Below, piece by piece: positions 24,923-40,088 of a DNA stretch of 64,000 bases (within the stretch, counting starts at the first letter, position 1; every line of letters starts with the position of its first letter). Below the pieces are notes generated by a model. It did not search any database, was not told the origin of the DNA, and saw nothing but the letters and a program-made list of their open reading frames with translations. This stretch comes from Roseobacter sp. MED193 (lineage in GTDB: Bacteria; Pseudomonadota; Alphaproteobacteria; Rhodobacterales; Rhodobacteraceae): positions 2,487,892 to 2,551,891 of the forward strand of contig NZ_CH902583.1 in the NCBI RefSeq assembly GCF_000152965.1, given 5' to 3'. Made by a program: the position numbers and the translations under genes.

Positions 24923-24969
24923 TGGCGACCCCGGCAGGATTCGAACCTGCAACCTGCCCCTTAGGAGGG
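24923..24969 (-). repeat. Left attachment site: 47-bp copy of the tRNA-Arg 3' half
   Basis: Bases 24923-24969 are identical to 40012-40058, the 3' half of tRNA-Arg(CCT) from the CCA end through the T arm and variable loop into the anticodon loop. Identity stops abruptly at both edges (A/T at 24922 and A/G at 24970). The sequence lacks the 5' half and is not a functional tRNA. It is the expected product of site-specific integration into the tRNA gene. Confidence 0.93.
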
Positions 24970-24983
24970 ATGCGTTCATAGCG

Positions 24984-26078
24984 CTATTCCTTTTTTGATT
25001 TCTTGCTGTTGGGTGTTTGTACAGCGTCATCCTGTACGTGGTTTGTACGAAAACGGGCCCTAATGTCGGCCTCATCGGTCTCTGCGTGGGCATAGATGCG
25101 CATGGGCAAATTCGGGTCTGACCAGCGGCCCGCCTTGGCAGCTGTGACCGGATCAACGCCTTGCCGGACGACTAACTCAGTGAAGAACCCATGCCGACCG
25201 GCGGGATGCGCTGACAGGTATGGAATGCCCGCGCGCTTGCAGATCGTCTTCCAGCGCGTGTTGTAGCCGGTTGAGCTGCCATAGCCAAAAACACGCGCCT
25301 TCATCAGTTTGCCGGTCTTGCGGTTCTTGGGGCGCTTAGGCGGCAAGGCCAGCAACTCGTCCATCATCTGAGGCGATACGGTGATCCAGCTCTCTGGGTG
25401 GCCCTTCTGCGCCTTCACTCGGACTTTGTTCTCGTGCGGCCGTAGGTCATCAGGCTCTAATGATACGGCCTGATCAATCCGCGCGGCCGTCTCGAACATG
25501 AAGCGGACCAGAGCGGCGTTATATGGATCAGCGGCACCGCAAAATGCCTCGATCCATTCCTTGTCAGCTGGCGTACGCTCCACGCGGCTAAGCTTCCCGC
25601 GTCGCTTGTCCTGCGCGATCCGCTCGAACTTGTCGTACGGCTTCACGCGGATCAGCGGCGTCCCCTCCAGTTCGTGCGCATTGTTGATGACCGCACTCGC
25701 GGGCGTCACGATTTCACGCCACCAGGTATCGGTCGACGCCTTGGGTTTCAGCTTTGGTCCAAGGCTCTTCAATAGCGCGCCAGAAATCGCACCTAACGAC
25801 AGGTCGCCGATTGCTTCGACAATGGGGATCAACTGCTTTGCTGCCTTAGGCGACGCGTTGTAGAGCATGATTGCATCAGAGAACGTCTTGCTCGGTTCAT
25901 CGCCCACGACATGGCGACGGATCTGACGTTCGGTCTCATGGTTTATCCAGTCCCTTGCGCCCTCTTCTGTAGATGCCTTAGTGCTTCGCCGGTATGGGCC
26001 GGCGATTGGCCTGCCGTTGTACTCAATCCACCCCTTGGCCCAGTAGACACGGCCCCTCTTGTAAATTTGGAGCGGCAT
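24984..26078 (-). CDS. int: Tyrosine recombinase (integrase) of the genomic island
   Basis: The 364-residue phage-type integrase has an N-terminal arm-binding part (MPLQIYKRGRVYWAKGWIEY), a core-binding domain and a catalytic domain. Box I arginine is in ETAARIDQAVSL, box II in HPAGRHGFFTELV, and the catalytic tyrosine in GRWSDPNLPMRIYAHA. The box II histidine lies four residues before the arginine, a form seen in alphaproteobacterial integrases. Its 3' end is 14 bases from the left attachment site, as usual for tRNA-targeting islands. The product should cut and join the 47-bp tRNA-derived sites. Confidence 0.93.
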   Translation of the reverse strand: MPLQIYKRGRVYWAKGWIEYNGRPIAGPYRRSTKASTEEGARDWINHETERQIRRHVVGDEPSKTFSDAIMLYNASPKAAKQLIPIVEAIGDLSLGAISGALLKSLGPKLKPKASTDTWWREIVTPASAVINNAHELEGTPLIRVKPYDKFERIAQDKRRGKLSRVERTPADKEWIEAFCGAADPYNAALVRFMFETAARIDQAVSLEPDDLRPHENKVRVKAQKGHPESWITVSPQMMDELLALPPKRPKNRKTGKLMKARVFGYGSSTGYNTRWKTICKRAGIPYLSAHPAGRHGFFTELVVRQGVDPVTAAKAGRWSDPNLPMRIYAHAETDEADIRARFRTNHVQDDAVQTPNSKKSKKE

Positions 26079-26290
26079 GACTGGCCTCCTTCAAAAATCG
26101 TATCGATCTGCGCGGGCGTGATCAGCATGGTCCGCCCAAGGCGGTAAAACGCGCCCGTCTCATTTGCCCGCTCACGCAACGTGCGCTCTGAAATATCGAT
26201 CCCCATCCCGGCCATAACTTCGACCCACTGCGCGGGAGTCTTTCCGTGCCCCAGGATCTGAGAGCTGTCTGAATAGTTGGTCTCTGCCAT
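25943..26290 (-). CDS. Excisionase-like small DNA-binding protein
   Basis: The 115-residue protein (start ATG 26290; the frame runs on to 26329) has a region KTPAQWVEVMAGMGIDISERTLRERANETGAF (in part) that reads as a winged-helix/MerR-like fold. LGRTMLITPAQIDTIFEG follows, as in AlpA/Xis-type recombination directionality factors. Its last 136 bases overlap the integrase gene in another frame, and the translated tail there is low-complexity, so only the first 70 residues may matter. Lying immediately upstream of int in the same direction supports an excisionase role. This is inference from position and fold. Confidence 0.6.
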   Translation of the reverse strand: MAETNYSDSSQILGHGKTPAQWVEVMAGMGIDISERTLRERANETGAFYRLGRTMLITPAQIDTIFEGGQSCRSKFTRGAVSTGPRGGLSTTAGQSPAHTGEALRHLQKRAQGTG

Positions 26291-26445
26291 TTCAGTCGTC
26301 CTTGTCCGCTTAAGTTGAATCGGCGACACGCATGGAATCGCTTGTTCTGCACCTTCTGACGTGGTCAGATGTGATTAACTGTAAATGTTCGTCATTTTTT
26401 GCAAAGTTCGCGAATTTCGGCGAAGTAGTCAATTGGAAAATTCAG
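26291..26445. promoter_or_regulatory. Divergent control region between excisionase-like and XRE genes
   Basis: The 155-base gap must hold promoters for both directions. It contains the palindrome TTCGCGAA with a close second copy TTTCGGCGAAG a few bases on (about 26406-26425). These are plausible operator half-sites for the adjacent XRE protein acting as the island's switch. No clear -35/-10 pair could be fixed. Confidence 0.45.
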
Positions 26446-26868
26446 ATGCCGCAGAAACATGCTGATCTTTTTGCTGCAATGGGTGCTCGTCTCACCATTG
26501 CTCGCAATGAAATCGGCTTTTCACAAGCGGCCATGGCCGAGGCTATCGGTGTCTCACCGCGCGCGTATCACAGCTACGAAAAGGGCCAGCGAGGAATGCC
26601 TGTAGAAGCCTTGGTCGCGATGGGTGAGCGGTTCGAGGTGGACGTGCCCTGGCTGCTACTCGGCACCAAATCCATTCGGGCTGGACATGATTTCGAGGCC
26701 CTCAAGCACATCGAAAGCTCGCTGGATAAGCACCTCACCGATGAGGGCATAAAAATCAAAAGCGAAAAGCGCGGGGCCATTGTCGCGCGCTGGTATCAAT
26801 CGCATGTCGAAGGTCGTGAAGTGACGGATGATGACGTGCACACATGGATCGAGTTGGTAAGGGAGTAG
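26446..26868 (+). CDS. XRE-family helix-turn-helix regulator
   Basis: The 140-residue protein carries an XRE helix-turn-helix at about 15-70: GARLTIARNEIGFSQAAMAE followed by IGVSPRAYHSYEKGQRG. A C-terminal part of 70 charged residues has no clear fold. I use the ATG at 26446. The frame continues to 26332, but the added residues are AT-rich intergenic sequence. It is divergent from the excisionase-like gene and four bases before a small membrane protein and an HNH nuclease gene. It may repress the island's int/xis, control the downstream pair, or both. Confidence 0.8.
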   Translation: MPQKHADLFAAMGARLTIARNEIGFSQAAMAEAIGVSPRAYHSYEKGQRGMPVEALVAMGERFEVDVPWLLLGTKSIRAGHDFEALKHIESSLDKHLTDEGIKIKSEKRGAIVARWYQSHVEGREVTDDDVHTWIELVRE

Positions 26869-26872
26869 TCTG

Positions 26873-27169
26873 GTGAACAAGGCAAGCAAACGCTGGAACA
26901 TGTTGCGGCATTCGGTCTTGGAGCGCACTCGCCGTGAGGTGATCGAACCCTTTGGGCCGCTTTACCTGATCTTCCTGGGAACCAGCGTGTTCTACCTGAT
27001 TGGCTTGGGTCGACTATCACTGGCACAACAGACCGCCGAATACTCGGTTTTGGCCACCATCATGATTTTCGCAATCGCTGCAGCGGGCTTGGCACTTCCA
27101 TTTTTGACAGGTGCGGTGCTGACCCTACGCGCGGCCGATCGAAAATTGGAACGCCTACAACGCAGGTGA
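26873..27169 (+). CDS. Small two-helix membrane protein of unknown function
   Basis: The 98-residue protein starts with GTG four bases after the XRE stop. A basic N-terminus (KASKRWNMLRHSVLERTRRE) precedes two hydrophobic helices, LYLIFLGTSVFYLIGLG and VLATIMIFAIAAAGLALPFL. A basic tail ends in RRAADRKLERLQRR-like residues. I know no family. Its four-base spacing on both sides ties it to the regulator and the HNH nuclease in one transcript. Such small membrane partners are common in defence modules, but nothing here proves that. Confidence 0.6.
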   Translation: MNKASKRWNMLRHSVLERTRREVIEPFGPLYLIFLGTSVFYLIGLGRLSLAQQTAEYSVLATIMIFAIAAAGLALPFLTGAVLTLRAADRKLERLQRR

Positions 27170-27173
27170 TCCG

Positions 27174-28073
27174 ATGGCTTTCGGCATCTTCATCCATCGC
27201 AGCGACTCGATCTACGACGACATTCCCTCTGAGCGGTATCAGTTTCCCAAGCAATACCTCTCTCGCGCCCAACAGTGCGAAGGGGATTGGATCGTCTACC
27301 TGGAGCCAAGCAAAGTCAAAGAGACCAAAGGTTACTTCGCTGTCGCCAAGGTCCAGGAGATCATTCCGGATCCTAGGAAGCAGGACATGTTCTTGGCGGT
27401 GATCGAGCTAGGAACGTATCTTGATTTCGGCGACCCTGTTTCATTCCGGGACGAGAATTCAATCATCGAAAGAGGATTGCTGAACGATCAAGGCAAGATA
27501 TCCGGACGCGCGCAAGCCGCAGTAAGAACCCTTTCAGCTGAAGACTTTGCCCGAATAGTCGAACGTGGCCTTGGACGAGATGAGGACATCCTGCCTCGCG
27601 TGGGCGTCACGATGCAGATGCCAGGGTTTCAAGATGCTCAAACACCTTTCCAACACATGCCCGCTCGAGAACGCGTCAACCAGCTGACCAATCGCGCGGT
27701 TCGCGATCGTAATTTCAGAAAGAACGTCCTGCGCGCCTACGGCGAGCGCTGCGCCATCACTGGTTTACGTCTGATCAATGGCGGTGGCCGCGCTGAAGTA
27801 GAAGCCGCTCATATCAGACCTGTAGAGCATGACGGCCCTGATATCGTCAGCAACGGGCTCGCCCTGTCCGGAACTGCACATTGGATGTTTGATCGCGGTC
27901 TCGTTGGATTGGCTGACGACCTGACTATTCTGGTTTCCCGCCAAAGCAACGACATCGAAGCAGTGGCATCGATGATCAACTCGTCCGGCAAGATCTTGGT
28001 GCCGGACCGCCTCGCCAACCGGCCAAGGGCGGAATTTGTGAATTGGCACAGAGAGAACTGTTTCAAGCATTAA
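27174..28073 (+). CDS. HNH endonuclease with N-terminal PUA/EVE-like domain
   Basis: In the 299-residue protein, residues 185-250 form an HNH nuclease: CAITG (Cys193), AHIRP (His213), NGLALSGTAHWMFDRGLV (Asn227, His236). The N-terminal half includes GDWIVYLEPSK and GYFAVAKVQEIIPDP, whose strand pattern resembles PUA/EVE-type modified-base readers. That assignment is tentative. Related HNH proteins act as modification-dependent (type IV-like) restriction enzymes. It is the third gene of the XRE/membrane/HNH set on the integrated element and a possible anti-phage or inter-element competition function. Confidence 0.75.
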   Translation: MAFGIFIHRSDSIYDDIPSERYQFPKQYLSRAQQCEGDWIVYLEPSKVKETKGYFAVAKVQEIIPDPRKQDMFLAVIELGTYLDFGDPVSFRDENSIIERGLLNDQGKISGRAQAAVRTLSAEDFARIVERGLGRDEDILPRVGVTMQMPGFQDAQTPFQHMPARERVNQLTNRAVRDRNFRKNVLRAYGERCAITGLRLINGGGRAEVEAAHIRPVEHDGPDIVSNGLALSGTAHWMFDRGLVGLADDLTILVSRQSNDIEAVASMINSSGKILVPDRLANRPRAEFVNWHRENCFKH

Positions 28074-28085
28074 CGATACTCAGTG

Positions 28086-28111
28086 CGGACATTGGTGCAA
28101 AACGCAGCTAA
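28086..28111 (+). repeat. Short dispersed repeat, copy A
   Basis: CGGACATTGG, GCAA, CGCAGC and AA occur in the same order here and at 36789-36813, with one base of indel and four differences across about 26 bases. Both copies lie between genes, on the same strand, just outside the MarR-TRAP-oxoprolinase-GDH cassette. The function is unknown. The repeat may mark the cassette's former boundaries or be a wider genomic repeat. Confidence 0.55.
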
Positions 28112-28272
28112 CGGCCGGAAGGAGCCCAATTTGACCGATGCTGCAGTGTGCTCGAACGTCCACTTTTCACTCTGAACGTTTCTGTGATCCGATCATTTCT
28201 TAAAAGATAAATTGAATTCCCCAAGTGCAAAACATACGTTAAACACGGGTAAAACGTTGAGGAAGTGTAAGT

Positions 28273-28794
28273 ATGAGCGAGCATGACATCCCAAAGCGAC
28301 GGATCGTTTCTTCCCGCCATTTGGCGGACGGGGCGAACTGGGAATCCTCCGAGATCGAATATGGCATGATTATCGCCTACAATGCTTTTTCACGATGGAT
28401 GACACGTTGCATGTCAGCGGCGGGTAATACCGATCTGACACCGTTGGAAATCCTTGTCTTGCACAACACCAATCACCGCGGTCGCGATAAACGGCTGACT
28501 GACATTTGTTTTCTGCTGAACATCGAGGACACGCATACCGTGAATTATGCTTTGCGTAAGCTGATGAAGATGGAGCTCCTCGTGTCGGAAAAGCGCGGGA
28601 AGGAAGTCTTCTACAGTGCCTCACCCACGGGGGAGGAATTGTGCGAAGCCTACCGTGAGGTGCGGGAACGCTGTTTCTTGGATGGGCTTTCGCGGTTGGA
28701 TATGACGGGCGAGGAAATGCGCGAGATCGCAGCGAGCATGCGCGCCCTGTCCGGCCAATATGATCAAGCCAGCAGGGCGGCAGCGTCGCTTTAA
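28273..28794 (+). CDS. MarR-type winged-helix regulator
   Basis: The 173-residue protein has a winged-helix domain at about 45-130: LTPLEILVLHNTNHRGRDKRL (in part) then TDICFLLNIEDTHTVNYALRKLMKMELLVSEKRGKE (in part), with the wing and a C-terminal dimer helix. It belongs to the MarR/HTH-27 group seen next to TRAP and amide-metabolism genes. Its stop codon and that of the convergent TRAP permease share the four bases TTAA at 28791-28794. A palindrome in the cassette's central divergent promoter (31701-31719) is a candidate operator. The ligand is perhaps pyroglutamate or glutamate. Confidence 0.8.
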   Translation: MSEHDIPKRRIVSSRHLADGANWESSEIEYGMIIAYNAFSRWMTRCMSAAGNTDLTPLEILVLHNTNHRGRDKRLTDICFLLNIEDTHTVNYALRKLMKMELLVSEKRGKEVFYSASPTGEELCEAYREVRERCFLDGLSRLDMTGEEMREIAASMRALSGQYDQASRAAASL

Positions 28795-30092
28795 CTTGCC
28801 ATGTAGGTCGGCAGGAACGTCACGATCTGCGGGAACAGACAGATCAGGAGAACGCCCAACAAGAGCAACAGAAAGAACGGGAACGCCGCTTTGGCGATCC
28901 TGAGGATGTCGATACCTGTCAGCCCTTGAATGACGAACAAGTTGAAACCAACGGGGGGCGTGATCTGGCTCATCTCGACGACGATCACAAGATAGATGCC
29001 GAACCAGATCGGGTCGATCCCGACGGCGCTCACCATCGGCATGATGATCGACGTTGTCAGCACGATGACCGAAATCCCATCCAGAAAACATCCAAGGATG
29101 ATGAAGAAGATCGTCAAAGCCACAAGCAAGGCAGTGATCGACAGGTTCATGTCAGATATCCATGACGCAAGGTTCCGTGGCAGACCTGTGAACCCCATTG
29201 CAACGGATAAGAACGCCGCGCCAAGCAGGATCAGGGCAATCATGCAAGATGTGCGGGTTGCCGACATGACCGCTTCGCCAAACAGCTTCCAACTAAACGC
29301 GCCAGAGGTCCACGCAAGGATCGTGGCCAACACAACCCCCAGTGCCGCCGCATCCGTCGGAGAGGCAAGGCCGCCATAGATTGACCCAATGACCCCCCCG
29401 ATCAAAAGTGCGACAGGGATCAACCTGCGCGATGCGCGGAACTTTTCACGAAAGCTAAACGTCTCATCTATTGCGGGGATCAGATCGGGGTTCATCCAAG
29501 CACGCACCGCAACATAGCTTGCGAACAGCGTCATGAGCATGATGCCGGGAATAATCGCGGCGATAAACAAGCGGGCGATAGATTGCTCGGTCGCGACGCC
29601 GTAGACGATCAGGATGATCGAGGGCGGAATAAGAAGGCCAAGCGTGGCTGATCCGGCAAGCGTGCCCAAGATCAGGCTTTCGGGGTAGCCACGTTTGGTC
29701 AGCTCTGGCACCGACATCCGGCCAATGGTAGCCGCTGTCGCCGCGGATGAACCTGACACCGCCGCGAAGATCGCACAGCCAAAGACATTCACGTGCAGCA
29801 AGCGGCCCGGTGCACGGCTAAGCCATGGTACGAGGCCGGTGAACATATCATCGCTCATGCGGGAGCGGAGCAGAATCTCACCCATTAGGATAAAAAGCGG
29901 CAAGGCTGTCAGCGCCCAAGAATGCGAATGCCCCCAAAACGTAGAGGCCAAGACCAATCCCGATGGCGCGTTCGAGAAAAACACGAGGCCCGCAAGACCG
30001 ACAAGAGAGAGCGAAATGGCAACCCATACCCCGCTGGCAAGCAAGGCCATTAGAAGCCCAAGAAGGACGAGGCCAATCATCGGATCCGACAT
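28791..30092 (-). CDS. TRAP transporter large permease (DctM-like)
   Basis: This 433-residue protein has about 12 hydrophobic helices and the DctM signatures AAVSGSSAATAATIGRMSVPEL, LLIPPSIILIVYGVATEQSI (in part) and EMSQITPPVGFNLFV. I set the start at 30092 (MSDPMIGLVLLGLLMALLAS), two bases after the DctQ stop. The longer frame to 30587 is only a shadow of dctQ. With the small permease it forms the Na+-driven membrane part of an organic-anion importer fed by the binding protein at 30689. Confidence 0.92.
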   Translation of the reverse strand: MSDPMIGLVLLGLLMALLASGVWVAISLSLVGLAGLVFFSNAPSGLVLASTFWGHSHSWALTALPLFILMGEILLRSRMSDDMFTGLVPWLSRAPGRLLHVNVFGCAIFAAVSGSSAATAATIGRMSVPELTKRGYPESLILGTLAGSATLGLLIPPSIILIVYGVATEQSIARLFIAAIIPGIMLMTLFASYVAVRAWMNPDLIPAIDETFSFREKFRASRRLIPVALLIGGVIGSIYGGLASPTDAAALGVVLATILAWTSGAFSWKLFGEAVMSATRTSCMIALILLGAAFLSVAMGFTGLPRNLASWISDMNLSITALLVALTIFFIILGCFLDGISVIVLTTSIIMPMVSAVGIDPIWFGIYLVIVVEMSQITPPVGFNLFVIQGLTGIDILRIAKAAFPFFLLLLLGVLLICLFPQIVTFLPTYMAS

Positions 30093-30094
30093 GA

Positions 30095-30619
30095 TTACAC
30101 CTCCCCCGGGCTGGACAGGATCGGCGCGCGGGCCGCAAGTAGGTCGAACAAGGTATGAATAACGGCCACCAGCAACAGCCCGATCCCGAAGGCTGCGACA
30201 CCTTGCGGAATCCAAAGGGGCACAGGGATGATCCCGTTCGACACATCCCCGTAGTGGACGCTTTCCACCACAAGTGCGCCCATGAAATAGGTCGCGTAGC
30301 CGATCAAACCGGTGGCGGCGATCAGCACGAACAGCTCGGCCACGAACTGGGCGGTCTTTGGCAAACGAGATACCACGAGGTTGACCCGAATATGTCCGCC
30401 TGCGCGCAGGGTATGGGCCATCGCCAAGAAGGTGGCCCCCGCCAGCATAAAGCCAGAAAAATCCGCGTAGGATGGAATGGTTGAAGGTAAGATACCCGGC
30501 GCAAAACGCCCGAAGGCATTGAGGCAAATTTGAGCAGAGATCAGAAGGCAGATGCACAGGATCAGCCCACCAGCGATCATGCCGCATACGTTATATAGGT
30601 TTTGAAGTAGGCGAGACAT
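30095..30619 (-). CDS. TRAP transporter small permease (DctQ-like)
   Basis: This 174-residue membrane protein has four helices, a typical DctQ layout: an N-terminal helix (MIAGGLILCICLLISAQICL), SGFMLAGATFLAMAHTLRAGGHIRVNL (in part) with the conserved A-HIRV motif, and two more helices. It lies between the binding protein gene (upstream, with a hairpin in between) and the large permease gene two bases downstream. Confidence 0.9.
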   Translation of the reverse strand: MSRLLQNLYNVCGMIAGGLILCICLLISAQICLNAFGRFAPGILPSTIPSYADFSGFMLAGATFLAMAHTLRAGGHIRVNLVVSRLPKTAQFVAELFVLIAATGLIGYATYFMGALVVESVHYGDVSNGIIPVPLWIPQGVAAFGIGLLLVAVIHTLFDLLAARAPILSSPGEV

Positions 30620-30644
30620 CGCAAAGCCGTCCTTATAAATAGAA

Positions 30645-30678
30645 AACTGGCCGACAGCTTACACGCTGCCGGCCAGTT
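30645..30678 (-). terminator. Attenuator-like terminator between binding-protein and permease genes
   Basis: AACTGGCCG (30645-30653) pairs with CGGCCAGTT (30670-30678). After a mismatch, ACAGC/GCTG-type pairing continues the stem. On the minus strand the stem is followed by TTTT. It lies between dctP and dctQ of the same operon and probably lets the binding protein be made in excess. Confidence 0.75.
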
Positions 30679-30688
30679 CAGGGAGGTA

Positions 30689-31648
30689 TTAGTTGTTATA
30701 GGCGTTCAGAACTGCGCGGGCGCTGTCGGATGCAGCCGCATCCCATGTGCCGAGCATTGTTTCACCGATGCCTTGCAGGCCTTCGATCAATTCTGCACTT
30801 GGCTCATAAACGGTGATGCCGTTCTCTGCGAGCGCGGCTGTCATGCTTTCGGCCTCGGCTGCAGACATTTCCCAACCACGGGTTTCGGCGGCTTCGGCAG
30901 CAGCCAGAACTGCGGCCTGCGTGTCAGCATCCAAACCATCAAACATACGCTGGTTCACAACTACGATGTTCTTAGGTACCCAAGCATTGATCGGTGTGTA
31001 ATGGGTAACAAAATCCCATGCGGTTGAGTTCACACCAGTCGAAGGCGACGTAATCATCGCTTCCACTTGACCTGTCGCAAAGGCCTGCGGGATGTTGGAC
31101 GCCTCAATCTGGACGGGTGCGGCACCGGCCAGCGTAGCAAATTCTTCCAACGCGGCGTTATAGGCGCGGAAGCGCAGGCCGTTCAGATCATCGACGGTGG
31201 CGATTTCACCGTTTGTATAAAGGCCCTGCGCTGGCCACGGCACAGAAAATAGCGGGATCAAACCCTGTTCGGCCAACAGCTCGGTAATGACGGGCTCTTG
31301 GGCGGCCCAAAGGCGCGCTGCGTCTTCATAGCTGGTGGCGACGAACGGCTGGCTGTCTACGCCGAACGCCAAATCTTCGTTTGACAGACGCGACAAAAAG
31401 AATTCGCCCAATGGAACAGAGCGGTTGCGCACGGCGCCTTTGATTTCCGCATGTGGGAACAATGAGCCCGCAGAATGCAGCGTGATATCCAGCGCACCAT
31501 CGGTTGCGGCACGCACGTCATCGGCGAACGCGGCGATGTTTTGCGTGTGGAATGTGCTGTCGCCGTACGGTGTTGGCATGTCCCAGCTTTGCGCATGGGC
31601 GGCTGTCGCACAAACAAGCGCTGCTGCGCCAAGAATGAAGTGTTTCAT
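30689..31648 (-). CDS. TRAP transporter substrate-binding protein (DctP-like)
   Basis: The 319-residue protein has a signal peptide (MKHFILGAAALVCATAAHAQ) and then a DctP fold with GLRFRAYN and the ASNIPQAFATGQVEAMITSP segment (in part) containing the substrate-contact region. The start at 31648 follows GGGAGAG. The frame to 31771 crosses the promoter and is not used. It captures the substrate in the periplasm for the adjacent DctQM permease. Because it is divergent from a 5-oxoprolinase gene, 5-oxoproline is a likely substrate. This is inferred from context, not from binding residues. Confidence 0.9.
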   Translation of the reverse strand: MKHFILGAAALVCATAAHAQSWDMPTPYGDSTFHTQNIAAFADDVRAATDGALDITLHSAGSLFPHAEIKGAVRNRSVPLGEFFLSRLSNEDLAFGVDSQPFVATSYEDAARLWAAQEPVITELLAEQGLIPLFSVPWPAQGLYTNGEIATVDDLNGLRFRAYNAALEEFATLAGAAPVQIEASNIPQAFATGQVEAMITSPSTGVNSTAWDFVTHYTPINAWVPKNIVVVNQRMFDGLDADTQAAVLAAAEAAETRGWEMSAAEAESMTAALAENGITVYEPSAELIEGLQGIGETMLGTWDAAASDSARAVLNAYNN

Positions 31649-31700
31649 GGTGTCTCTCCCTATCAAGACAAAAATGGTACGAATTATTTCGAATCCATGA

Positions 31701-31719
31701 CGTTGACAATTTGTCAGCG
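31701..31719. promoter_or_regulatory. Palindromic operator candidate in divergent promoter
   Basis: CGTTGACAA-T-TTGTCAGCG is an inverted repeat matching at eight of nine pairs around the central T31710. It sits in the 114-base gap between the TRAP binding-protein gene (-) and the oxoprolinase gene (+). Size and symmetry fit a MarR-family operator, and the cassette's own MarR gene at 28273 is the obvious candidate binder. Confidence 0.55.
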
Positions 31720-31762
31720 TTATATCCATAAAGCAACAACAAATTGATTCTGGGAGAGCGAT

Positions 31763-34700
31763 GTGGATCACGCGGATAATAAGAAATGGCAGTTTTGGGT
31801 CGACCGTGGCGGCACCTTTACCGATATCGTCGCACGAAAGCCCGATGGCACGCTACAGACCCACAAGCTTTTGTCCGAGAATCCCGAGGTTTATCCCGAC
31901 GCTGCCGTGCACGGCATCAAGTCACTCCTTGGTGTCGCCCCCGGTGAAGACCTCCCTCCCGGTCAAATTGCGGCACTGAAGATGGGCACGACCGTTGCGA
32001 CCAACGCTTTGTTGGAACGCAAGGGCGAGCGCACTGTTTTGCTGATCACCAAAGGCTTGCGAGATTTGTTACGCATCGGCTATCAGAACCGTCCTGATCT
32101 TTTTGCGCTGAACATCAAACTGCCGGAACTGCTCTATGAAGACGCAATTGAGATCGACGAGCGGGTCGCAGCCGACGGGAAAATCATCACAGCACTTGAT
32201 ACAACAAGCGCACGCGAAGCACTGTCGCGCGCCTACGGGAAAGGTTACCGCTCTGTCGCGATCGCGCTGATGCATGGGTACAAATACACCGATCATGAGG
32301 TGCGATTGGGCGAGATGGCGCGGCAGTCGGGCTTTACGCAGGTCTCTCTCAGCCATGAGGCCAGCCCGTTAATCAAGCTGGTGTCGCGCGGTGATACCGC
32401 TGTGGTGGATGCCTACCTATCCCCCATTTTACGTCGCTACATCGAACAAGTTGCGTCAGCTTTGAATGCCAAAGACGGCGGCTGTGACAGTCTAATGTTC
32501 ATGCAATCCAACGGAGGCTTGACCGACGCTGAGCGGTTTCAGGGCAAGGATGCGATCCTATCAGGCCCTGCAGGTGGCGTTGTCGGCATGGTGCGCACCG
32601 CCGCCGATCTTGGGTTTGATCGCCTGATTGGGTTCGACATGGGCGGAACTTCAACAGATGTTTGCCACTATGCGGGTGAATTTGAGCGCTCGTTCGAGAC
32701 CGAAGTGGCAGGTGTGCGGATGCGCGCACCAATGATGTCGATTCATACGGTCGCTGCGGGTGGCGGATCAATCCTTTCTTACCGAGACGGGCGTATGCAA
32801 GTTGGCCCCGAAAGCGCAGGCGCCAACCCTGGCCCCGCCGCATACCGTCGCGGCGGTCCTTTGACGGTGACCGATTGCAACGTGTTGCTGGGTAAACTGC
32901 AACCGAGCCAGTTCCCGTCTGTGTTTGGGCCGGAAGCGGATCAACCGCTGGACGCAGATGTCGTGCGTGAAAGGTTCACTGCCCTAAAACAAGACATTGG
33001 CACCGACAAATCCATCGAAGACATCGCCGAAGGGTTTTTGCGCATTGCGGTCGAGAACATGGCCAATGCGATCAAACAGATCAGTGTGCAACGTGGCTAT
33101 GACGTGACCCAATACACCATGAATTGCTTTGGTGGCGCGGGTGGCCAACACGCCTGTCTCGTCGCGGACACTTTGGGGATGGAAAGCATCTTTATCCATC
33201 CATTTGCAGGCGTTCTGTCCGCATTCGGAATGGGATTGGCGGACGTCAGATCAATCCATGAGCACCAATTTGCCAAACCCATTGGCGAGACGACACAGGC
33301 GGAAATTACACTAGGTGAACTCATTGAAGCCGCCCAAGCGGAAGTGCGGTCCCAGGGCATTGCTGACACAGATATCTCAACGGTCGTCGCCGCGCATATC
33401 CGGACCGATGGCGCGCATCAGACGCTAGAAGTGCCCTTTGGCACACCGAGCGAGATGACCGAAAGATTTAACAAAGCGCATAAAACCCGCTTTGGCTTCG
33501 TACCCGAAAACGCGACGCTGATTATTGACCTTCTGACAGCGGAAGCGATTGGCTCGACCGGTGAAACGGTGACGTTGTCCGATACAACGCACAGTGATGA
33601 AGACGGCAAAACCGCGCAAATGTATGTGAATGGGGCGTGGACGGATGTGCCCTTGGTCAATCGCGCGGGCCTTGCGGCTGGGGACACCGTTACTGGCCCC
33701 GCGATTTTGACAGAACCCACAGGCACCAATATCATCGAGGACGGTTGGCATGCTGAGTGTGCTGCGGGCGGTAACCTTGTACTGCGCCGCATCGTGCCGC
33801 TGGATCGGGTTGAGGCCATTGGCACCACCGTTGATCCGGTCATGCTTGAGGTGTTCAACAACCTTTACATGTCCATTGCCGAACAGATGGGCGCGACCCT
33901 CGCGAACACTGCTTTTTCAGTGAACATCAAAGAACGCTTGGATTTCTCTTGTGCGATTTTCGACCATCACGGTGATCTGGTCGCCAACGCGCCGCATGTG
34001 CCGGTGCACCTGGGATCAATGTCAGGCAGCGTTCGGTCGATCCTTCATCAAAACGCGGGCAAAATCCGCCCCGGCGATGTGTTCATGATGAACAACCCGT
34101 TTAATGGCGGCACCCACTTGCCGGATGTGACGGTCATCACCCCGGTTTTTGATGCTGCTGGCGAAAATATCATTTACACGGTCGCCTCGCGCGGGCATCA
34201 CGCTGACATTGGAGGCACTACGCCCGGCTCCGCACCTCCAGACAGCCGCCATATCGACGAAGAAGGCGTATTGATCGACAATTTCTTGCTGGTCAAACAA
34301 GGCGTCCTGCAAGAGGCGCAAACCCGCGACCTGTTATCGTCTGCCAAATACCCATGCCGCAATGTGGATCAGAACATGGCCGATCTGGCCGCGCAAATTG
34401 CCGCCAACGCGACGGGCGAGCGGGAATTACAGAAAATTACCCGCCAGTTCGGTTTGGACGTTGTGCATGCCTATATGGGCCACGTGCAAGACAACGCCGA
34501 AGAAAGCGTGCGCCGTGTTTTGGATGTGCTGCATGATTGCGATTTCACCTATCCACTGGACAGCGGTGCGCAGATCAAAGTGAAGATCTCGGTAGACAAA
34601 AAAGCACGCACTGCTGACATTGATTTTACGGGTACGTCCAAACAAGACGACCTTAACTACAATGCACCTTTGTCCATTTGTCGCGCCGTGGTTTTGTATG

Positions 34701-35365
34701 TCTTCCGCACGCTCGTCGGGGCCAACATCCCCATGAACGAAGGCTGCATGAAACCCCTGCATCTTACGGTTCCTTCAGGGTCAATGATCAACCCTGATGC
34801 GCCTGCTGCCGTGATTTCGGGCAATACGGAAGTTAGCCAAGCCATTGCCGACACGCTTTATGGCGCGCTTGGTGTCGTTGCGGGCAGCCAAGGGACGATG
34901 AACAACTTCGTCTATGGAAATGACGACGTCCAAAACTATGAAACGATTTGCGGCGGCACTGGTGCGGGCGACGGATTTGATGGTGCCAGTGCCGTGCATA
35001 GCCACATGACCAACACCCGCATGACGGACCCCGAAGTTCTGGAAACGCGTTTTCCCGTGCGCGTGGAGGAATTTTCGATCCGGCGCGGGTCTGGTGGTAA
35101 TGGCGCGTTCAAAGGCGGTGACGGCATCATCCGCAAATTGCGGTTTATGGAACCGATGACTGTCACGACCCTCACATCACATCGCAAAACTGCGCCGCAC
35201 GGGGCATCAGGCGGGGCACCCGGCGCTACGGGCGAAAACTCTGTCGTTCGTGCGGATGGAACTCAGATCGCAATGCAGGGCAATGATGTCGCGCAGATGG
35301 ATGTCGGTGATGTTTTTGTCCTCAAATCCCCCGGCGGTGGTGGTTATGGAAAGGCAAAATCATGA
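31763..35365 (+). CDS. Fused hydantoinase A/B, 5-oxoprolinase-like (ATP-dependent)
   Basis: The 1200-residue protein contains an HyuA-type half with an actin-like ATPase fold ([19 protein letters not shown] near the start, [11 protein letters not shown] near 295, GGGSI near 332). From about residue 690 comes an HyuB-type half ([21 protein letters not shown], in part; then [16 protein letters not shown]). The order and length match the fused 5-oxoprolinases, which open 5-oxoproline to glutamate with ATP. N-methylhydantoinases have the same fold, so the substrate is not certain. The start is GTG after GGGAGAG. The stop overlaps the glutamate dehydrogenase start by ATGA, which supports glutamate as product. 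Confidence 0.88.
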
Positions 35366-36771
35366 GCGCGGGGTTCCTGTCTGACGTAGAGGCGATGTAC
35401 GACCGCGCAGCCGTAAATGTGGATATGCCAGACGGCTTGTCTGATAAAATCAAGGCCTGCAATGCAACCTATGTCACCCGTTTTGGTGTACGTCTGCGTG
35501 GGCGGATGTTCACCTTTCGCGGATGGCGCGCCACGCATTCCACCCATAGCGGCCCTGCGAAGGGCGGGATCAGATACGCGCCCAACGTTGATCAAGATGA
35601 GGTCGAAGCACTGGCCGCGCTGATGAGTTATAAATGCGCCTTGCTGAACCTGCCTTTTGGCGGATCAAAGGGCGCGTTGGAAATCACGCCATCCGATTGG
35701 GAACCGTTCGAGCTTGAGAAAATCACCCGCCGCTTCGCGCAAGAGCTTATGCGTCACGGATTTTTGGCCTCTGCCACCAATGTTCCGGCCCCTGATGTTG
35801 GCACCAACCAGCAAATGATGATGTGGATTGCCGATGAATATCGCCGCTACAAACCCGATGATATCAACGGCATGGGATGTGTCACCGGCAAACCGGTGAC
35901 CGGTGGCGGGATCGCAGGACGAACGGAAGCCACAGGGCGCGGTGTGCAATACGCGATCCATGCGTTCTTTCAGTCTGAAAGGGACCGACATGCTGCAGGA
36001 TTCGAGAGCGACAAATTGGAGGGGCAGCGCGTTATCATACAGGGGTTGGGAAACGTCGGCAGCCACGCCGCGCAGTTTCTAAGCGATGACGACGGATGCA
36101 AGATTATCGCCGTGATTGAACATGACGGTGTGGTTCGCAACGCCGATGGTTTGGACATCGCAGCCCTCAAGGCGCATCAAATCGCGACGGGAAGCATCAT
36201 GGGATTTGATGGCGGAACATCTGACGGAAACGGCGCTGCGGCCTTGGAAGATGCCTGCGATATCTTGATCCCTGCGGCCTTGGAAAGCGTCATTCACGCA
36301 GACAACGCTGCAAGAATACAGGCGCGGCTGGTGGTGGAAGCTGCGAACGGCCCCGTCACATATGCGGCTGATGAAATCCTTAGACAACGCGGCATCACGA
36401 TCATACCCGATATGTTGGCCAACGCGGGTGGCGTGGTCGTCAGTTATTTTGAATGGGTCAAAAACATTACTCACATGCCCTTTGGTTTAATGGAGCGTCG
36501 CCAAACCGACCGTGAGCATCGCATTCTCGCCCACTCCATGGAGAAAATGACAGGGCAATCTTTCCCATCAGAACATAAGGGCGAATTTCTGGCCGAACGC
36601 GGTGAGATCGACCTTGTACGGTCTGGTTTGGCAGAGATGATGCATCAGGCGTTTGACGAAGTGTCAGCACATGCGCACCAGAGCCGGGAGGGTGCAGTGA
36701 CATTACGAGACGCTGCTTATGAAATTGCCATCAAGCGCATTTCCGGAGCGTACCAAGCAATTGGCCTCTAA
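35362..36771 (+). CDS. Glutamate dehydrogenase (Glu/Leu/Phe/Val dehydrogenase family)
   Basis: The 469-residue protein has the family signatures: [10 protein letters not shown] (Lys67), [18 protein letters not shown] (catalytic-type Lys91 and Lys103), PAPDVGTN (Asp145), and the Rossmann motif GLGNVG at 228-233. It oxidatively deaminates an amino acid, most likely glutamate, to 2-oxoglutarate and ammonium. Translation is coupled to the oxoprolinase by ATGA (35362-35365), so the two form a two-step route. No transport or regulatory domain is added. The symbol gdhA/gudB is not assigned because cofactor use is unclear. Confidence 0.9.
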
Positions 36772-36788
36772 GTTTGACAAAATCAAAC

Positions 36789-36813
36789 CGGACATTGGCG
36801 CAACCGCAGCGAA
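36789..36813 (+). repeat. Short dispersed repeat, copy B
   Basis: This is a near-copy of the element at 28086-28111 (CGGACATTGG-GCAA-CGCAGC-AA), 18 bases after the glutamate dehydrogenase stop. The rest of the 207-base gap to 36978 shows no gene. Confidence 0.55.
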
Positions 36814-36978
36814 AGCTCACTTCGTCCCACAACACGGCCATCCTTCGCAGGCTCGCGAATGACTGGTTTCTCCGCTGCGCGCCCCCCAAGGAAATCGCAT
36901 ACATGCAGCGTTTTGCTGAAGATCGAATTCAGGGTTCCTGCTAAAGACCTTCGAACCACGTCAGAAATTGCAATAAGA

Positions 36979-38535
36979 TCAAAGCGAATGTCCAGCGCTG
37001 CGGTGGCTATCTCTCGCGTCTAACTCTCTTTCAGCCGCTTCTCGGCGTCTTTCGCTAGTTTCCAGCTGGTCTCTAACCCCGCCTGCAGCGTCGCGTAATT
37101 CTGCTCCTCGCGCAGCAAGTCGGCCAATGTGGTGACGGACGTAAGATGTGATTTCATCAATAGCGCCACGCAATGCGCCAAGCCATTCACCTTGCTTTCG
37201 ATCCTGCTGGTCGAGCGCTTCTCCAAGGCGTGCAATTCCTTGGCTGAACTCTCGCAGGCCGTCACCAACCGCTCGACGGATGCGAGCAATTCGCGTTCCA
37301 ATGCTGTCAGGGTCTGTGTCATCTAGGGTTCCTTGATCTCGATACAGATGACCGGCGTCCCGGCCATGGTGCAGGTCTTCAATTCGGTCCGGTCGGGGTC
37401 CAGCGTCACCCATGTCTGCCCAGCCTGTTCGATCCGTGTCAGGCCAAGCCTCGTCATCTCCGAGCGCGTGAACAAGCCCGTCCAAAACCAACTCGCGATC
37501 AGCACTGTCGCGATCCAGGATGAGACCATCGCCACGATCACCCAGGGTGAGATCGTCAACCAGCGCCTGATCGTCTCGCTCCGCCTCTCCAACTCGCTCC
37601 TGCTGTCGCTCAGAAAGAACCTGATATCGGTCTCGATTGTATGTAGCGCGCTGGTCGCAATGCTGCTGAAATCGCTCCTGAAGCTCTCCAGCTGAGATGC
37701 CATCAAGGCGGCGTGGTCGCTGCGTATTGTCTCCAGGTCCGCGTTCAATTTCTCGGCGAGGCGGTTCGGCTTGCCAGTCGTCATGGAAAATCTCTCCTTT
37801 CAAGCGCCAGCGTTCACCGGTGTCCGGGTCTTTGGCGATGATGTAATCTTTGCTGGCACGGGGGATCTCGAAGCCCGCGTCAGTGAGTGCGTCGATCATG
37901 CTAGCGCGGTCAGTGATGATGCCGACGCTGATCTGATCGAGTATCCATTCGTGCAGCGCCTCGCGACCTTGCGCGCGCGTCGGCGCTTCAATCGTCGCTC
38001 TCACTTCACGGGCGCGTTCTGGGTCCAAAGGGTCTGCCCAACCGTGAGTCTTGTTCATCAAATCGCGCAGGCTGGAAAAAGCGCTCTCATGGCCTGGCGG
38101 TGCGATGTTCAGCGCCTTGCCGGTGCTGAACTCAAGGCGTGGCGTACAGAAGTGCAGCTCGACGTTGCCCTCATGCGAGTGGCGCACCCAAAGGCAGTCG
38201 TATTGATCCCTGTCCAGCCCAGCAAAGGCCAGAGCCTCAAATAGCTCAATGGCCTCTTGCTGGGCGGCGGGACTGGGATCGTCGCTGTCGGCAAAGCTGA
38301 TCACACCTGCCGTGTAGCTCCATTTGTTGGGGCTCGCATCGATCAGGTCGCGGGTCTGATCGGGATTGCCGTGCAGCACCTCGGGCAGCGGGTCGCGGAT
38401 CTTGGTTTGCGGCTGGCCGTTGTCATAACGGATCAGATTGCGGTTCTCGTCATAGGCCAGAACTTCACGCGCTGTCAGGTAGTCTACGGGAGCTGCACCG
38501 CCACCAGTGCCGGTGGAGAAGAACGAGATGATCAT
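36979..38535 (-). CDS. mobA: Relaxase MobA, ColE1 MbeA-like
   Basis: The 518-residue protein is close in length to ColE1 MbeA. Tyr19 lies in PVDYLTAREV, where MbeA has its catalytic Tyr19. The metal motif reads RHSHEGNVELHF: His119, Glu126 at +7 and His128 at +9. ColE1 MbeA has His, Glu, Asn at the same spacing (HEN), and classic relaxases have three histidines, so this is an H-E-H intermediate. The C-terminal half is charged and coiled. It nicks oriT for transfer. The ATG overlaps the mobC stop (TAATG). Two further genes, mobB and mobD, lie inside it in another frame. Confidence 0.88.
   Translation of the reverse strand: MIISFFSTGTGGGAAPVDYLTAREVLAYDENRNLIRYDNGQPQTKIRDPLPEVLHGNPDQTRDLIDASPNKWSYTAGVISFADSDDPSPAAQQEAIELFEALAFAGLDRDQYDCLWVRHSHEGNVELHFCTPRLEFSTGKALNIAPPGHESAFSSLRDLMNKTHGWADPLDPERAREVRATIEAPTRAQGREALHEWILDQISVGIITDRASMIDALTDAGFEIPRASKDYIIAKDPDTGERWRLKGEIFHDDWQAEPPRREIERGPGDNTQRPRRLDGISAGELQERFQQHCDQRATYNRDRYQVLSERQQERVGEAERDDQALVDDLTLGDRGDGLILDRDSADRELVLDGLVHALGDDEAWPDTDRTGWADMGDAGPRPDRIEDLHHGRDAGHLYRDQGTLDDTDPDSIGTRIARIRRAVGDGLREFSQGIARLGEALDQQDRKQGEWLGALRGAIDEITSYVRHHIGRLAARGAELRDAAGGVRDQLETSERRREAAERELDARDSHRSAGHSL
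37020..37322 (-). CDS. mobD: MobD (MbeD-like), nested in mobA
   Basis: The 100-residue helical protein begins MTQTLTALERELLASVERL, close to the start of ColE1 MbeD (a short coiled-coil mobilization protein whose N-terminus has the same ELEKQLL-type heptads). It lies wholly within mobA in a shifted frame and follows the mobB stop without a gap (TAG then ATG), with AAGGAA as ribosome site. In ColE1 mbeD is likewise nested in mbeA. MbeD is linked to mobilization or entry exclusion. The call rests on position, size and N-terminal similarity. Confidence 0.7.
   Translation of the reverse strand: MTQTLTALERELLASVERLVTACESSAKELHALEKRSTSRIESKVNGLAHCVALLMKSHLTSVTTLADLLREEQNYATLQAGLETSWKLAKDAEKRLKES
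37323..37784 (-). CDS. mobB: MobB (MbeB-like), nested in mobA
   Basis: In the 153-residue protein, a coiled-coil N-terminal half is followed by a strongly hydrophobic helix (WVIVAMVSSWIATVLIASWF). After it come TWVTLDPDRTELKTC and a short tail ending VICIEIKEP. ColE1 MbeB has the same plan: helical part, one membrane helix, then a short domain with an LPPG-type segment. The gene is nested in mobA in another frame, yet has its own strong ribosome site AAAGGAGAG about eight bases before ATG 37784. MbeB helps dock the relaxosome at the membrane. The shifted-frame membrane helix argues against chance. Confidence 0.75.
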   Translation of the reverse strand: MTTGKPNRLAEKLNADLETIRSDHAALMASQLESFRSDFSSIATSALHTIETDIRFFLSDSRSELERRSETIRRWLTISPWVIVAMVSSWIATVLIASWFWTGLFTRSEMTRLGLTRIEQAGQTWVTLDPDRTELKTCTMAGTPVICIEIKEP

Positions 38536-39002
38536 TAGCCACCGCCTGTGTGCGCCGCCACGATCTGCGCCATCTGCCGCTCGATGACCACCAGTTGTGT
38601 CGCGACCTTGAGAGCATCGATCTGGCTCGCGCGGCCGGATTTGACCGCGCCGTTGATCCAGCGGGAGAGCTGATTGAGGTTGCCGCCGACGCGGGCAATC
38701 GCAAAGGTCAGCTTCGGGTCAACACGGGGGACGGGCTTGCGCCGACGTGCCTCAGTCAGCCCCAAGGCCTCACGCATCAACGTGGCATTGGGCAGGCCAG
38801 CGGCGTGCGATTTGGCCACAAGCGCTGCCTTTTCCGACGGGGTGCATCGAAAGATCACACTCTCGGAAAGGCCCTCTTTGACGCCGCTTGCGCGCGTCTG
38901 GTTGGGGTTTGAAGGGGAGGCTTGCCGCCCCTCACAAGTCCCGCCGATGTAATCGGTGGGTAACCTTGCTCTCTGCTCTTTGTTGGGATCGGTCGCACTC
39001 AT
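38535..39002 (-). CDS. mobC: MobC-like relaxosome accessory protein
   Basis: The 155-residue protein has a ribbon-helix-helix-like stretch (VIFRCTPSEKAALVAKSHAA) and the MobC helix region ARVGGNLNQLSRWINGAVKSG, which is highly typical of ColE1-type MobC/MbeC. It binds oriT and helps the relaxase to melt the nick site. The gene order mobC then mobA, with mobB and mobD inside mobA, is that of ColE1. Its start overlaps the upstream replication-like gene by ATGA (38999-39002). Confidence 0.88.
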   Translation of the reverse strand: MSATDPNKEQRARLPTDYIGGTCEGRQASPSNPNQTRASGVKEGLSESVIFRCTPSEKAALVAKSHAAGLPNATLMREALGLTEARRRKPVPRVDPKLTFAIARVGGNLNQLSRWINGAVKSGRASQIDALKVATQLVVIERQMAQIVAAHTGGG

Positions 39003-39856
39003 GCTCTGAGCCCCGCCGCCTCGATTTCAGCAGGGCTGACCAGGTTTGCGGCCAGCAAAGCGGTTACTTGGCCGGGCGTGATATGGCGGCAAAGGGGGTG
39101 CTTGTCCGTGACCCAGTCGGCCAAGCCTTTCAGCAGTTCGGCTTCTTTGGCTTTGCCTGCTTCTCGCGCCTCCTCAACATCGTGAAGGTATTTCAACCAA
39201 CGGCCAGACGTGAACCAATTGTCGGAGAAACACACTTTGGAGCGGGTGAAGCCTTCGCTTTCGGATGCATAGGCCCGCACGGCGCCCTCGAGGTCTTTGG
39301 CATCCACTCCGTCGGCCAACGCTTGGCGGATTTGTGAGAGACAAACCGCTTTGCCGCGAATGCGATCCTCCGGATAGGCTGACAAAATCTTTTCAGAAGC
39401 TTCTTCCTCCACCGCCGCCTTCGCGTGCGAAGGATCTGGTTTTTGATATGGTTTATATCTGTTCTTATAGGATTTGCCCTCTGGGGCAGATGGCTTGCCC
39501 TCAGGGGCAAATGCATCATTTTCCCTTTCGGTCGGATCGATTTGCCCATTTGGGCAAATGGAGTTGCCCAGGGCATACCAACAGGTTCGGTCATAGCGAT
39601 CATCGCTGAAATTGCCCTTGATGATCAGCTCTGCGCTGACCAACTTTTCGAGCGCCGTGCGGATCTGCTTCTCGCTCAGATAGGGGAACAAGTCACCAAA
39701 GGCCGAGATCGAATTGTAGGTCCAATACCGCCCGTCTCGAAGGTTACGGCGATTGGCTTGGTTCTTCTCGATCCAGAAGGTGATGTTTTGGAAAATCACC
39801 GCTGCATTGAGACCGACACGTCCGGCGATTTCGGGATCAAAGCTATGGCGGCTCAT
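38999..39856 (-). CDS. Helix-turn-helix replication-like protein of the island
   Basis: The 285-residue protein has an N-terminal winged-helix part (GLNAAVIFQNITFWIEKN, then SEKQIRTALEKLVSAELI) of the kind found in phage and plasmid replication proteins. A Lys/Pro-rich linker follows (PEGKPSAPEGKSYKNRYKP), then a C-terminal DnaD-like helical part with FSDNWFTSGRWLKYL. The start at 39856 follows GGGGGTCG, and the longer frame to 39997 is discarded. It heads the transcript that continues into mobC and mobA. Replication of the excised circle or helicase loading is a reasonable role but unproven. Confidence 0.6.
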   Translation of the reverse strand: MSRHSFDPEIAGRVGLNAAVIFQNITFWIEKNQANRRNLRDGRYWTYNSISAFGDLFPYLSEKQIRTALEKLVSAELIIKGNFSDDRYDRTCWYALGNSICPNGQIDPTERENDAFAPEGKPSAPEGKSYKNRYKPYQKPDPSHAKAAVEEEASEKILSAYPEDRIRGKAVCLSQIRQALADGVDAKDLEGAVRAYASESEGFTRSKVCFSDNWFTSGRWLKYLHDVEEAREAGKAKEAELLKGLADWVTDKHPLCRHITPGQVTALLAANLVSPAEIEAAGLRA

Positions 39857-40011
39857 GATCGACCCCCGAAATACGCACAAACGTGCGAATTTTGTACAGG
39901 TTTTGTACGAGAAATCGGCCGTTTCAGCCGATTTCGGGCCGAAGGCTGGCGGGGCTTTCTGCACGCTTCCACACAACGCCCTGTAAATAAGCCACATTTT
40001 TCAGGTGTTTT
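39857..40011. promoter_or_regulatory. Non-coding right end: candidate oriT and integrase arm sites
   Basis: This gap holds inverted repeats (CGCAC/GTGCG around 39874-39887 and GAAATCGGC/GCCGATTTC around 39911-39935) and a pair of direct motifs TTTGTACAG (39891) and TTTTGTACGA (39901). On the minus strand there is TGGCTTA at 39994-39988, resembling the ColE1-family nick sequence. It lies upstream of the rep-mobC-mobA transcript, where oriT and the promoter are expected. Confidence 0.45.
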
Positions 40012-40058
40012 TGGCGACCCCGGCAGGATTCGAACCTGCAACCTGCCCCTTAGGAGGG
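40012..40058 (-). repeat. Right attachment site (3' half of tRNA-Arg)
   Basis: These 47 bases within the tRNA gene are repeated exactly at 24923-24969. They span the CCA end to the anticodon loop, the classic crossover region for tyrosine integrases. Confidence 0.92.
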
Positions 40059-40088
40059 GGCTGCTCTATCCAGTTGAGCCACGGGGCC
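40012..40088 (-). tRNA. tRNA-Arg (anticodon CCT)
   Basis: The minus strand folds into a full cloverleaf. The acceptor stem GGCCCCG pairs with CGGGGTC. The D arm is GCTC..GAGC. The anticodon stem GCCCC/GGGGC carries loop CTCCTAA, the T arm is GCAGG TTCGAAT CCTGC, the discriminator is G and CCA is encoded. Anticodon CCT reads AGG (Arg). Its 3' 47 bases serve as the right attachment site (40012-40058) of the island. The gene is intact after integration. Confidence 0.96.

Follow-up and report, generated by a model that had tools for sequence, protein, structure and literature searches.

The 64,000-nucleotide stretch of Roseobacter sp. MED193 analysed here (the window; contig NZ_CH902583.1, positions 2,487,892 to 2,551,891) carries a relaxase gene, mobA, in which two further open reading frames, mobB and mobD, are nested out of frame. 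The locus raises the question of whether the nested frames are genes at all, whether they correspond to mbeB and mbeD of plasmid ColE1, and what such a set of genes would do on a chromosome. The explanation that we favour, with good probability, is a ColE1-type mobilization module on an integrative mobilizable element, whose nested mobB and mobD would help transfer, because the nested frames are under purifying selection, are related to MbeB and, by way of intermediates, to MbeD, and stand together with mobC, an integrase and attachment (att) sites.

Conservation and selection in the nested frames

An earlier note on this DNA had described a 153-residue protein with its own ribosome-binding site and one membrane helix, encoded out of frame within mobA and followed, across a TAG-ATG junction, by a 100-residue protein. 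The layout was borne out: mobB lies in the +1 frame with its ATG at 37784, directly 3' of GAAAGGAGAGATTTTCC, a hydropathy scan found a single hydrophobic segment (19-residue window from residue 82, mean Kyte-Doolittle value 2.07), and the mobB TAG (37325-37323) adjoins the mobD ATG at 37322 with a gap of 0 nucleotides. As mobD starts at the mobB stop, its translation is probably coupled to that of mobB.

Such frames might be by-products of mobA composition without any protein function. When the synonymous codons of mobA were shuffled (5000 trials), the longest +1 run reached the observed 158 codons in 31% of the shuffles, so that frame length in one sequence, unremarkable as it is, agrees with this explanation and the window sequence alone is only modest evidence. 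The 153 mobB codons were stop-free in 1.8% of the shuffles and the 100 mobD codons in 34%, and both stretches together in just 0.4%, which argues against a by-product; the decisive evidence is conservation across relatives.

The relaxase search yielded 103 loci, with some overlaps and duplicates among them; mobB and mobD were both detected in 87, mobB only in one (L088) and neither in 15; many of the loci without detectable mobB or mobD are relaxase fragments or distant relaxases. Removal of duplicates and short stretches left 77 distinct loci with both genes and with relaxases 47-100% identical. Frequent stop codons in the nested frame of relatives, which the earlier note had named as grounds for abandoning its proposal, were not found: the frame is free of stops besides that of mobB itself in 74 of the 77, the exceptions being L035, in which a stop interrupts mobB at residue 80, L046, whose mobB ends after 125 codons and has lost its ribosome site, and the relaxase fragment L016. 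The mobA frame is likewise open across the overlap in 74 of the 77 loci, with one stop each in L003, L016 and L048.

The signals for translation were counted in those 74 distinct loci in which the N terminus of the relaxase is present as well. The mobB start is ATG in 73 of them and GTG in one, and an AGGAG-like site stands at most 20 nucleotides before it in 73, the exception being L046. An ATG directly follows the mobB stop in 62 loci; the other 12 junctions have GTG in seven (including the broken L035), a codon and then ATG in four (L090, L094, L097 and L102) and the broken L046. As a separate observation, the relaxase frame is broken by an in-frame stop in L003, L036, L048 and L093 (TAG in the first three) with mobB and mobD open, and the opposite case, a broken mobB in an open mobA, occurs in L035 and L046.

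The silent sites of mobA, for which a conservation check had been proposed, proved strongly conserved over the overlap. At four-fold sites with the first two bases shared, 38.2% differed from the window copy upstream of the overlap, whereas the figures for the stretches shared with mobB and with mobD were 8.6% and 7.7% (71 mobA sequences, among them L013, which lacks mobB and mobD and should be excluded). The ratios of nonsynonymous to synonymous change (dN/dS) were then calculated with changes split by their effect in both frames, using 32 sequences of more than 85% identity and 200 of the 496 pairs. Upstream of the overlap the ratio of mobA was 0.11. The values in the mobB overlap were 0.27 (0.18-0.37; NN/NS) for mobB and 1.04 (0.65-1.69) for mobA, and those in the mobD overlap were 0.29 (0.20-0.41; NN/NS) for mobD and 1.22 (0.75-2.06) for mobA, with bootstrap ranges that resample codons, not lineages, and within-family pairs that are not independent. 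With 16 non-overlapping pairs and three transition weights (1 to 4), the nested ratios were 0.25-0.41 and those of mobA 0.86-1.40; using all 496 pairs, the nested ratios were 0.19-0.29.

Finer windows of mobA, also with all 496 pairs, gave 2.82 (1.11-9.24) for residues 252-304, a segment with very few changes of the kind that is silent in mobA yet non-silent in mobB, 0.93 (0.60-1.54) for residues 305-403 and 1.21 (0.73-2.06) for the mobD part. The rate of changes that alter MobA and are silent in the nested frame was 0.117, 0.26 and 0.17 in these three segments, compared with 0.32 for silent changes upstream in mobA. Judged by these rates, MobA is constrained in residues 252-304, mildly so in the mobD part and hardly in residues 305-403. 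The comparison shows that selection in the overlap rests mainly on the nested genes and that MobA is under little amino-acid selection across most of it.

On this comparative evidence mobB and mobD are clearly real genes kept by natural selection. The silent-site conservation, the nested dN/dS of about 0.3, the conserved start, ribosome site and stop-start junction and the similarity to MbeB and MbeD described below all stand against by-products of composition, which we consider barely credible. With 77 distinct loci, selection can be measured on two overlapping frames at once, a rare opportunity in bacteria.

Relationship to MbeB, MbeD and known mobilization systems

The relaxase itself is of the MbeA kind. 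MobA matched the NCBIfam model relax_MbeA_E1 over residues 1-353 (E 4.7e-44; 151 bits, below the strict cut-off of 500) and the Pfam Relaxase model at E 4.5e-5 (24.2 bits, cut-off 24.6), and is 34% identical to ColE1 MbeA across residues 1-254. It has Y19 and a motif III H119-x-H121-x4-E126-L-H128, which reads H-E-H and not the H-E-N that defines the MOB-HEN group. The motif III glutamate is kept in 69 of 70 relatives, and among 20 aligned plasmid relaxases the motif is H-E-N in two (ColE1 and Hafnia), H-E-H in 15 and H-H-H in three.

The nested proteins were compared with their plasmid counterparts profile to profile. The mobB query profile held 70 relatives. One target was a selection of eight proteins out of 20 plasmid loci (ColE1, Hafnia, E. 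coli, Klebsiella, Rahnella, Aeromonas, Arsenophonus and Chondrocystis) and the other of six Rhodobacterales plasmid proteins (five from Paracoccus, one from Yoonia); L105 and L106 were excluded as too close, L115 and L116 because the record ends within them, L123 because it is cut and L121 because no mobD was evident. The search for similarity to MbeB, proposed as a check, was successful: mobB matched the eight MbeB-type proteins at E 9.3e-12 (probability 97%, residues 9-152) and the six Rhodobacterales proteins at E 3.8e-14, and reversed or block-shuffled controls gave 0.014 or worse and 0.008 or worse with the two targets, respectively.

For the proposed resemblance of mobD to MbeD, the outcome depended on the profile used. 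Its position and N-terminal motif agree with those of MbeD, it matched the six Rhodobacterales plasmid proteins at E 9.7e-8, and a combined alphaproteobacterial profile matched the eight at E 9.5e-6 (probability 83%, 51 columns). The comparison with the eight without intermediates reached only E 1.1e-3 (probability 21%), the controls, which were run with this uncombined profile, being 0.019 or worse. The apparent link between mobD and MbeD rests on the Rhodobacterales plasmid intermediates. Crossed pairs (mobB against MbeD-type, mobD against MbeB-type proteins) gave 0.34 or worse. The further description of mobD as a coiled coil is judged by eye and homology rather than predicted.

A match of mobB to a CCDC90-like model (E 0.16) was too weak to be taken as evidence. 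An Aeromonas mobB, annotated as DUF1640, scores E 2e-4 to the CCDC90-like model, below the cut-off, and the mobB of an E. coli mini-plasmid (L111:1430-2002) has a weak TraM-like conjugal transfer match (NCBIfam PRK13895, E 5e-4), also below the cut-off.

The overlapping layout had been said to be known from ColE1-type plasmids, and ColE1 (NC_001371) indeed has mbeB and mbeD inside mbeA, likewise in its +1 frame. In both systems mobC overlaps mobA, mobB and then mobD occupy the 3' part of mobA, a hydrophobic segment lies in the middle of MobB and MobD begins ...LE..LL; mbeB and mbeD start 688 and 1213 nucleotides into the relaxase gene, mobB and mobD of the window 751 and 1213. ColE1 differs in being a small plasmid, in its H-E-N motif, in a gap of 6 nucleotides between the two nested genes instead of 0, and in having proteins that match PF04837 and PF04899. 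The same frame and order, with a gap of 0-6 nucleotides, were found in ColE1 and in plasmids of Hafnia, Aeromonas, Rahnella, Klebsiella, E. coli, Arsenophonus, Paracoccus, Yoonia and a cyanobacterium; in the last, from Chondrocystis (L114:2001-4490), the pair lies in an 829-codon relaxase frame. RSF1010/R1162, whose MOBQ relaxase belongs to another family, also encodes a membrane protein MobB in a different frame of its relaxase gene.

Also close are the Paracoccus plasmids pMARC2 and pAES4, which share nested mobB and mobD and the H-E-H motif and differ in being plasmids and in encoding a MobB of 135 residues, 24-25% identical to that of the window, and a MobD of 89 residues. Overlapping mobA-mobB-mobC of Paracoccus was reported in 2013 as MOBP5, with no mobD named in the available text of PMC3832669, where pMARC2 and pAES4 are filed as MOBP5(MOBHEN); MbeA is placed in the HEN subfamily of MOBP in a review (PMC12857230). 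Passages of PMC9282650 and PMC6118388 describe ColE1-type plasmids that encode MobB and MobD internally. One of them, according to the former, is Salmonella pSNC3-Kan, which is ColE1-like with internally encoded MobB and MobD, and differs from the window in being an enterobacterial plasmid with the relaxase motif HQD-x4-ELNF. The arrangement itself is thus already known, Paracoccus included, and what is added here is a divergent chromosomal family, demonstrated selection in both nested frames and an asymmetry within the overlap.

Because the nested proteins have no Pfam or NCBIfam match to MbeB or MbeD and plasmid annotation is partial, two proteins that probably aid the spread of DNA-transfer elements among marine Rhodobacterales are easily missed. 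Of the two Rhodobacterales plasmid records that contain close relatives, L105 is annotated with mobA alone and L106 with the two nested genes alone, and the ColE1 record (L104) lists mbeB and mbeD and no mbeA. The Yoonia plasmid pBS5-3-2 (L117:1-1384) has, beside its mob module, a gene annotated as a type IV secretory system conjugative DNA transfer family protein.

The integrative element and the role of the module

That the module sits on a chromosomal integrative element was confirmed. An exact 47-bp direct repeat bounds 15,089 bp, from the integrase end to the 3' end of tRNA-Arg(CCT), and the integrase, att repeats and relaxase that mark an integrative mobilizable element are all present. 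No transfer apparatus was seen by eye among the open reading frames of at least 150 residues in 24923-40058, and a whole-genome search for VirB4 (PF03135) gave two matches, both on other contigs. We infer that the element would excise and be mobilized by a helper.

Of the 394 genomes searched in the family, 54 have relaxase relatives (E<=1e-20), this genome among them. In 30 of 54 named loci the same tRNA precedes the module by an unchanged distance, and L100 has tRNA-Arg(CCT) at a slightly different distance. Six tRNA-Arg relatives were taken in longer stretches (L125-L130), five of them not independent of the named loci. Two att copies were found in L126-L129, delimiting elements of about 13.3, 7.6, 13.3 and 17.9 kb, that of L128 with two mismatches in the distal copy and just 30 nucleotides of the other copy within the stretch; L125 has one copy in 19.6 kb, and the stretch of L130 ends too soon. 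An integrase homologue is present in three of the four two-att elements and was not found in the 7.6-kb one. By these comparisons the element is one of a family common in Rhodobacterales, on which no paper was seen among the listed hits of a literature search that left subscription journals mostly outside.

The mechanism that we propose is as follows. The element would excise at the 47-bp att, and MobC and MobA would then nick its origin of transfer (oriT). MobB would be anchored in the inner membrane, its long helix on the cytoplasmic side and a small domain with a disulfide on the outer side; it and the helical MobD would assist docking of the relaxosome to a type IV secretion system provided by another replicon. 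The packing of the genes into one overlap would bind relaxase and helper expression into one unit. The structure model of MobB has helices at 8-77 and 80-112, the latter spanning the hydrophobic segment, and four strands at 115-150. All 22 aligned sequences keep Cys138 and Cys147, and comparable C-terminal Cys pairs occur in the Paracoccus, Arsenophonus and Acinetobacter proteins; the disulfide placed outside the cytoplasm is our inference.

Several results weigh against this reading. Direct Pfam and NCBIfam searches, in which HMMER filters drop most weak hits, gave no MbeB (PF04837) hit for mobB and no MbeD (PF04899 / NF033829) hit for mobD at E<=10; the nested MobB of three other plasmids (L111, L118 and L119) likewise fails PF04837. 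Against ColE1 and Hafnia alone the profile matches are weak (mobB E 5.6e-5, probability 66%; mobD E 2e-3, probability 13%). The MobB model is moderately confident (pLDDT 74, pTM 0.28), a PDB fold search with it found none at E<=0.001 (best E 1.1), and ColE1 MbeB is without the Cys pair. A Polaromonas plasmid (L121) has a related relaxase and a mobB-like nested frame with no evident mobD. Finally, no oriT was identified by alignment of the conserved blocks described below and a scan of 15 loci.

The genes could also be real and have shifted from transfer to keeping out related elements by exclusion or immunity, a role reported for ColE1 mbeD. The tRNA-Arg site is contested by many related elements, and mbeD is credited with exclusion in passages of PMC2831885, where this is called convincingly shown, and of PMC11493245, where the ColE1 case is called unclear. 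The retention of mobB and mobD in an open mobA in 74 of the 77 loci is what a transfer role predicts, and nothing here separates exclusion from transfer help; we regard a shift to exclusion as unlikely. Less likely still is a decayed, immobile remnant, with which the broken relaxases in four loci and the broken mobB in two (see above) would agree.

Between the tRNA and the gene upstream of mobC, at 39857-40011, two blocks are conserved in 15 aligned tRNA-Arg-group relatives, one of them next to att and with a TGGCTTA-like core; they are possible integrase, oriT or operator sites. No oriT is claimed for them, since the core varies in several relatives and a scan of 15 loci found neither block in the 13 that are more distant or lie in a different place.

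On the minus strand the upstream gene, mobC and mobA follow one another in this order with start/stop overlaps (Table 1). MobC matches the Pfam families NikA-like (E 3.8e-9) and MobC (E 6.2e-5), both over the cut-off. The upstream gene has no Pfam or NCBIfam match; its likely start is near 39856, at ATGAGCCGCCAT, which is conserved in relatives, and the gene at its position is annotated as a helix-turn-helix protein in two Rhodobacterales plasmids.

Table 1. Features of the mobilization module and its element (window positions).
Feature	Positions	Strand	Basis
mobA, MOBP5/MbeA-like relaxase, 518 residues	36979..38535	-	family models, plasmid matches
mobB (MbeB-type), 153 residues, +1 frame inside mobA	37323..37784	-	
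mobD (MbeD-type), 100 residues, +1 frame inside mobA, begins at mobB stop	37020..37322	-	
mobB ribosome-binding site and spacer, GAAAGGAGAGATTTTCC	37785..37801	-	sequence and relatives
mobC, NikA/MobC-type accessory protein, 155 residues	38535..39002	-	Pfam; TAATG overlap with mobA
gene upstream of mobC (open reading frame)	38999..39997	-	ATGA overlap with mobC; no family match
tyrosine integrase of the element	24984..26078	-	Pfam Phage_integrase E 1.4e-9
distal att copy, 47 bp identical to tRNA-Arg 3' end	24923..24969	.	
att copy within tRNA-Arg(CCT)	40012..40058	.	
tRNA-Arg(CCT)	40012-40088	-	

By eye, the cargo at 28791-36771 resembles a set of TRAP transporter genes together with genes for a large protein of hydantoinase/oxoprolinase type and one of glutamate dehydrogenase type. 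A second mobC-mobA-mobB-mobD module is present in the same genome (L124:11322-13306; relaxase at C1:739764-741305, 79% identical), with no tRNA gene, 47-bp att or upstream-gene match in the surrounding 19 kb.

Relative age of the overlapping frames

The asymmetry of selection raises the further question of which frame came first. MobA consists of a conserved relaxase part (about residues 1-304) and a weakly constrained tail (about 305-518), with few invariant residues past 303 in 22 relatives; of the 60 plasmid matches listed, many reach no further than residues 304-324. The reference for codon usage was 15 window genes (two of them element cargo), which themselves score 0.07 to 0.26. Host-like mean log-odds were obtained for mobB (+0.09), mobD (+0.07) and mobA codons 1-248 (+0.15), compared with negative values for mobA in the overlap (-0.11 and -0.25). 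The G+C content is higher at nested than at mobA third positions in 73 of 73 loci. In two AT-richer plasmids the nested third-position G+C also exceeds that of mobA upstream (L114, 0.55 versus 0.40; L112, 0.58 versus 0.46), as expected if T is avoided to spare mobA stops. Synonymous shuffling of mobB and mobD brings a mean of 3.7 stops into the mobA frame and none in only 2.5% of cases, whereas 74 of the 77 loci, which share ancestry, have none; mobA thus stays open.

Tentatively, and with belief and doubt almost balanced, doubt slightly ahead, we suggest that mobB and mobD are older and that the last ~210 codons of mobA are a later extension over them, after mobA lost its stop. The tail would then be just open, charged and perhaps largely disordered, with residues that hardly matter, and translation through it would couple relaxase and helper synthesis. 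No paper on such an inversion was seen among the listed hits of the same literature search. Against the extension it must be said that a disordered, little-constrained MobA tail would leave much the same pattern. The structure model of MobA has low confidence (mean pLDDT 50, pTM 0.30) and says little on disorder of the tail, because residues 133-188 in the relaxase part are nearly as low as 302-416, the longest stretch below pLDDT 50. The C-terminal region of MbeA is mentioned in a passage of PMC6118388 as predicted to bind single-stranded DNA.

ColE1 and seven relatives gave dN/dS values of 1.19 (0.67-2.41) for mbeA and 0.51 (0.29-1.0) for mbeB in the mbeB part, and of 0.36 (0-2.42) for mbeA and 0.18 (0-0.95) for mbeD in the mbeD part, where changes are few. 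The overlap pattern of the ColE1 group appears similar but less certain, and the same asymmetry may be present in ColE1 itself.
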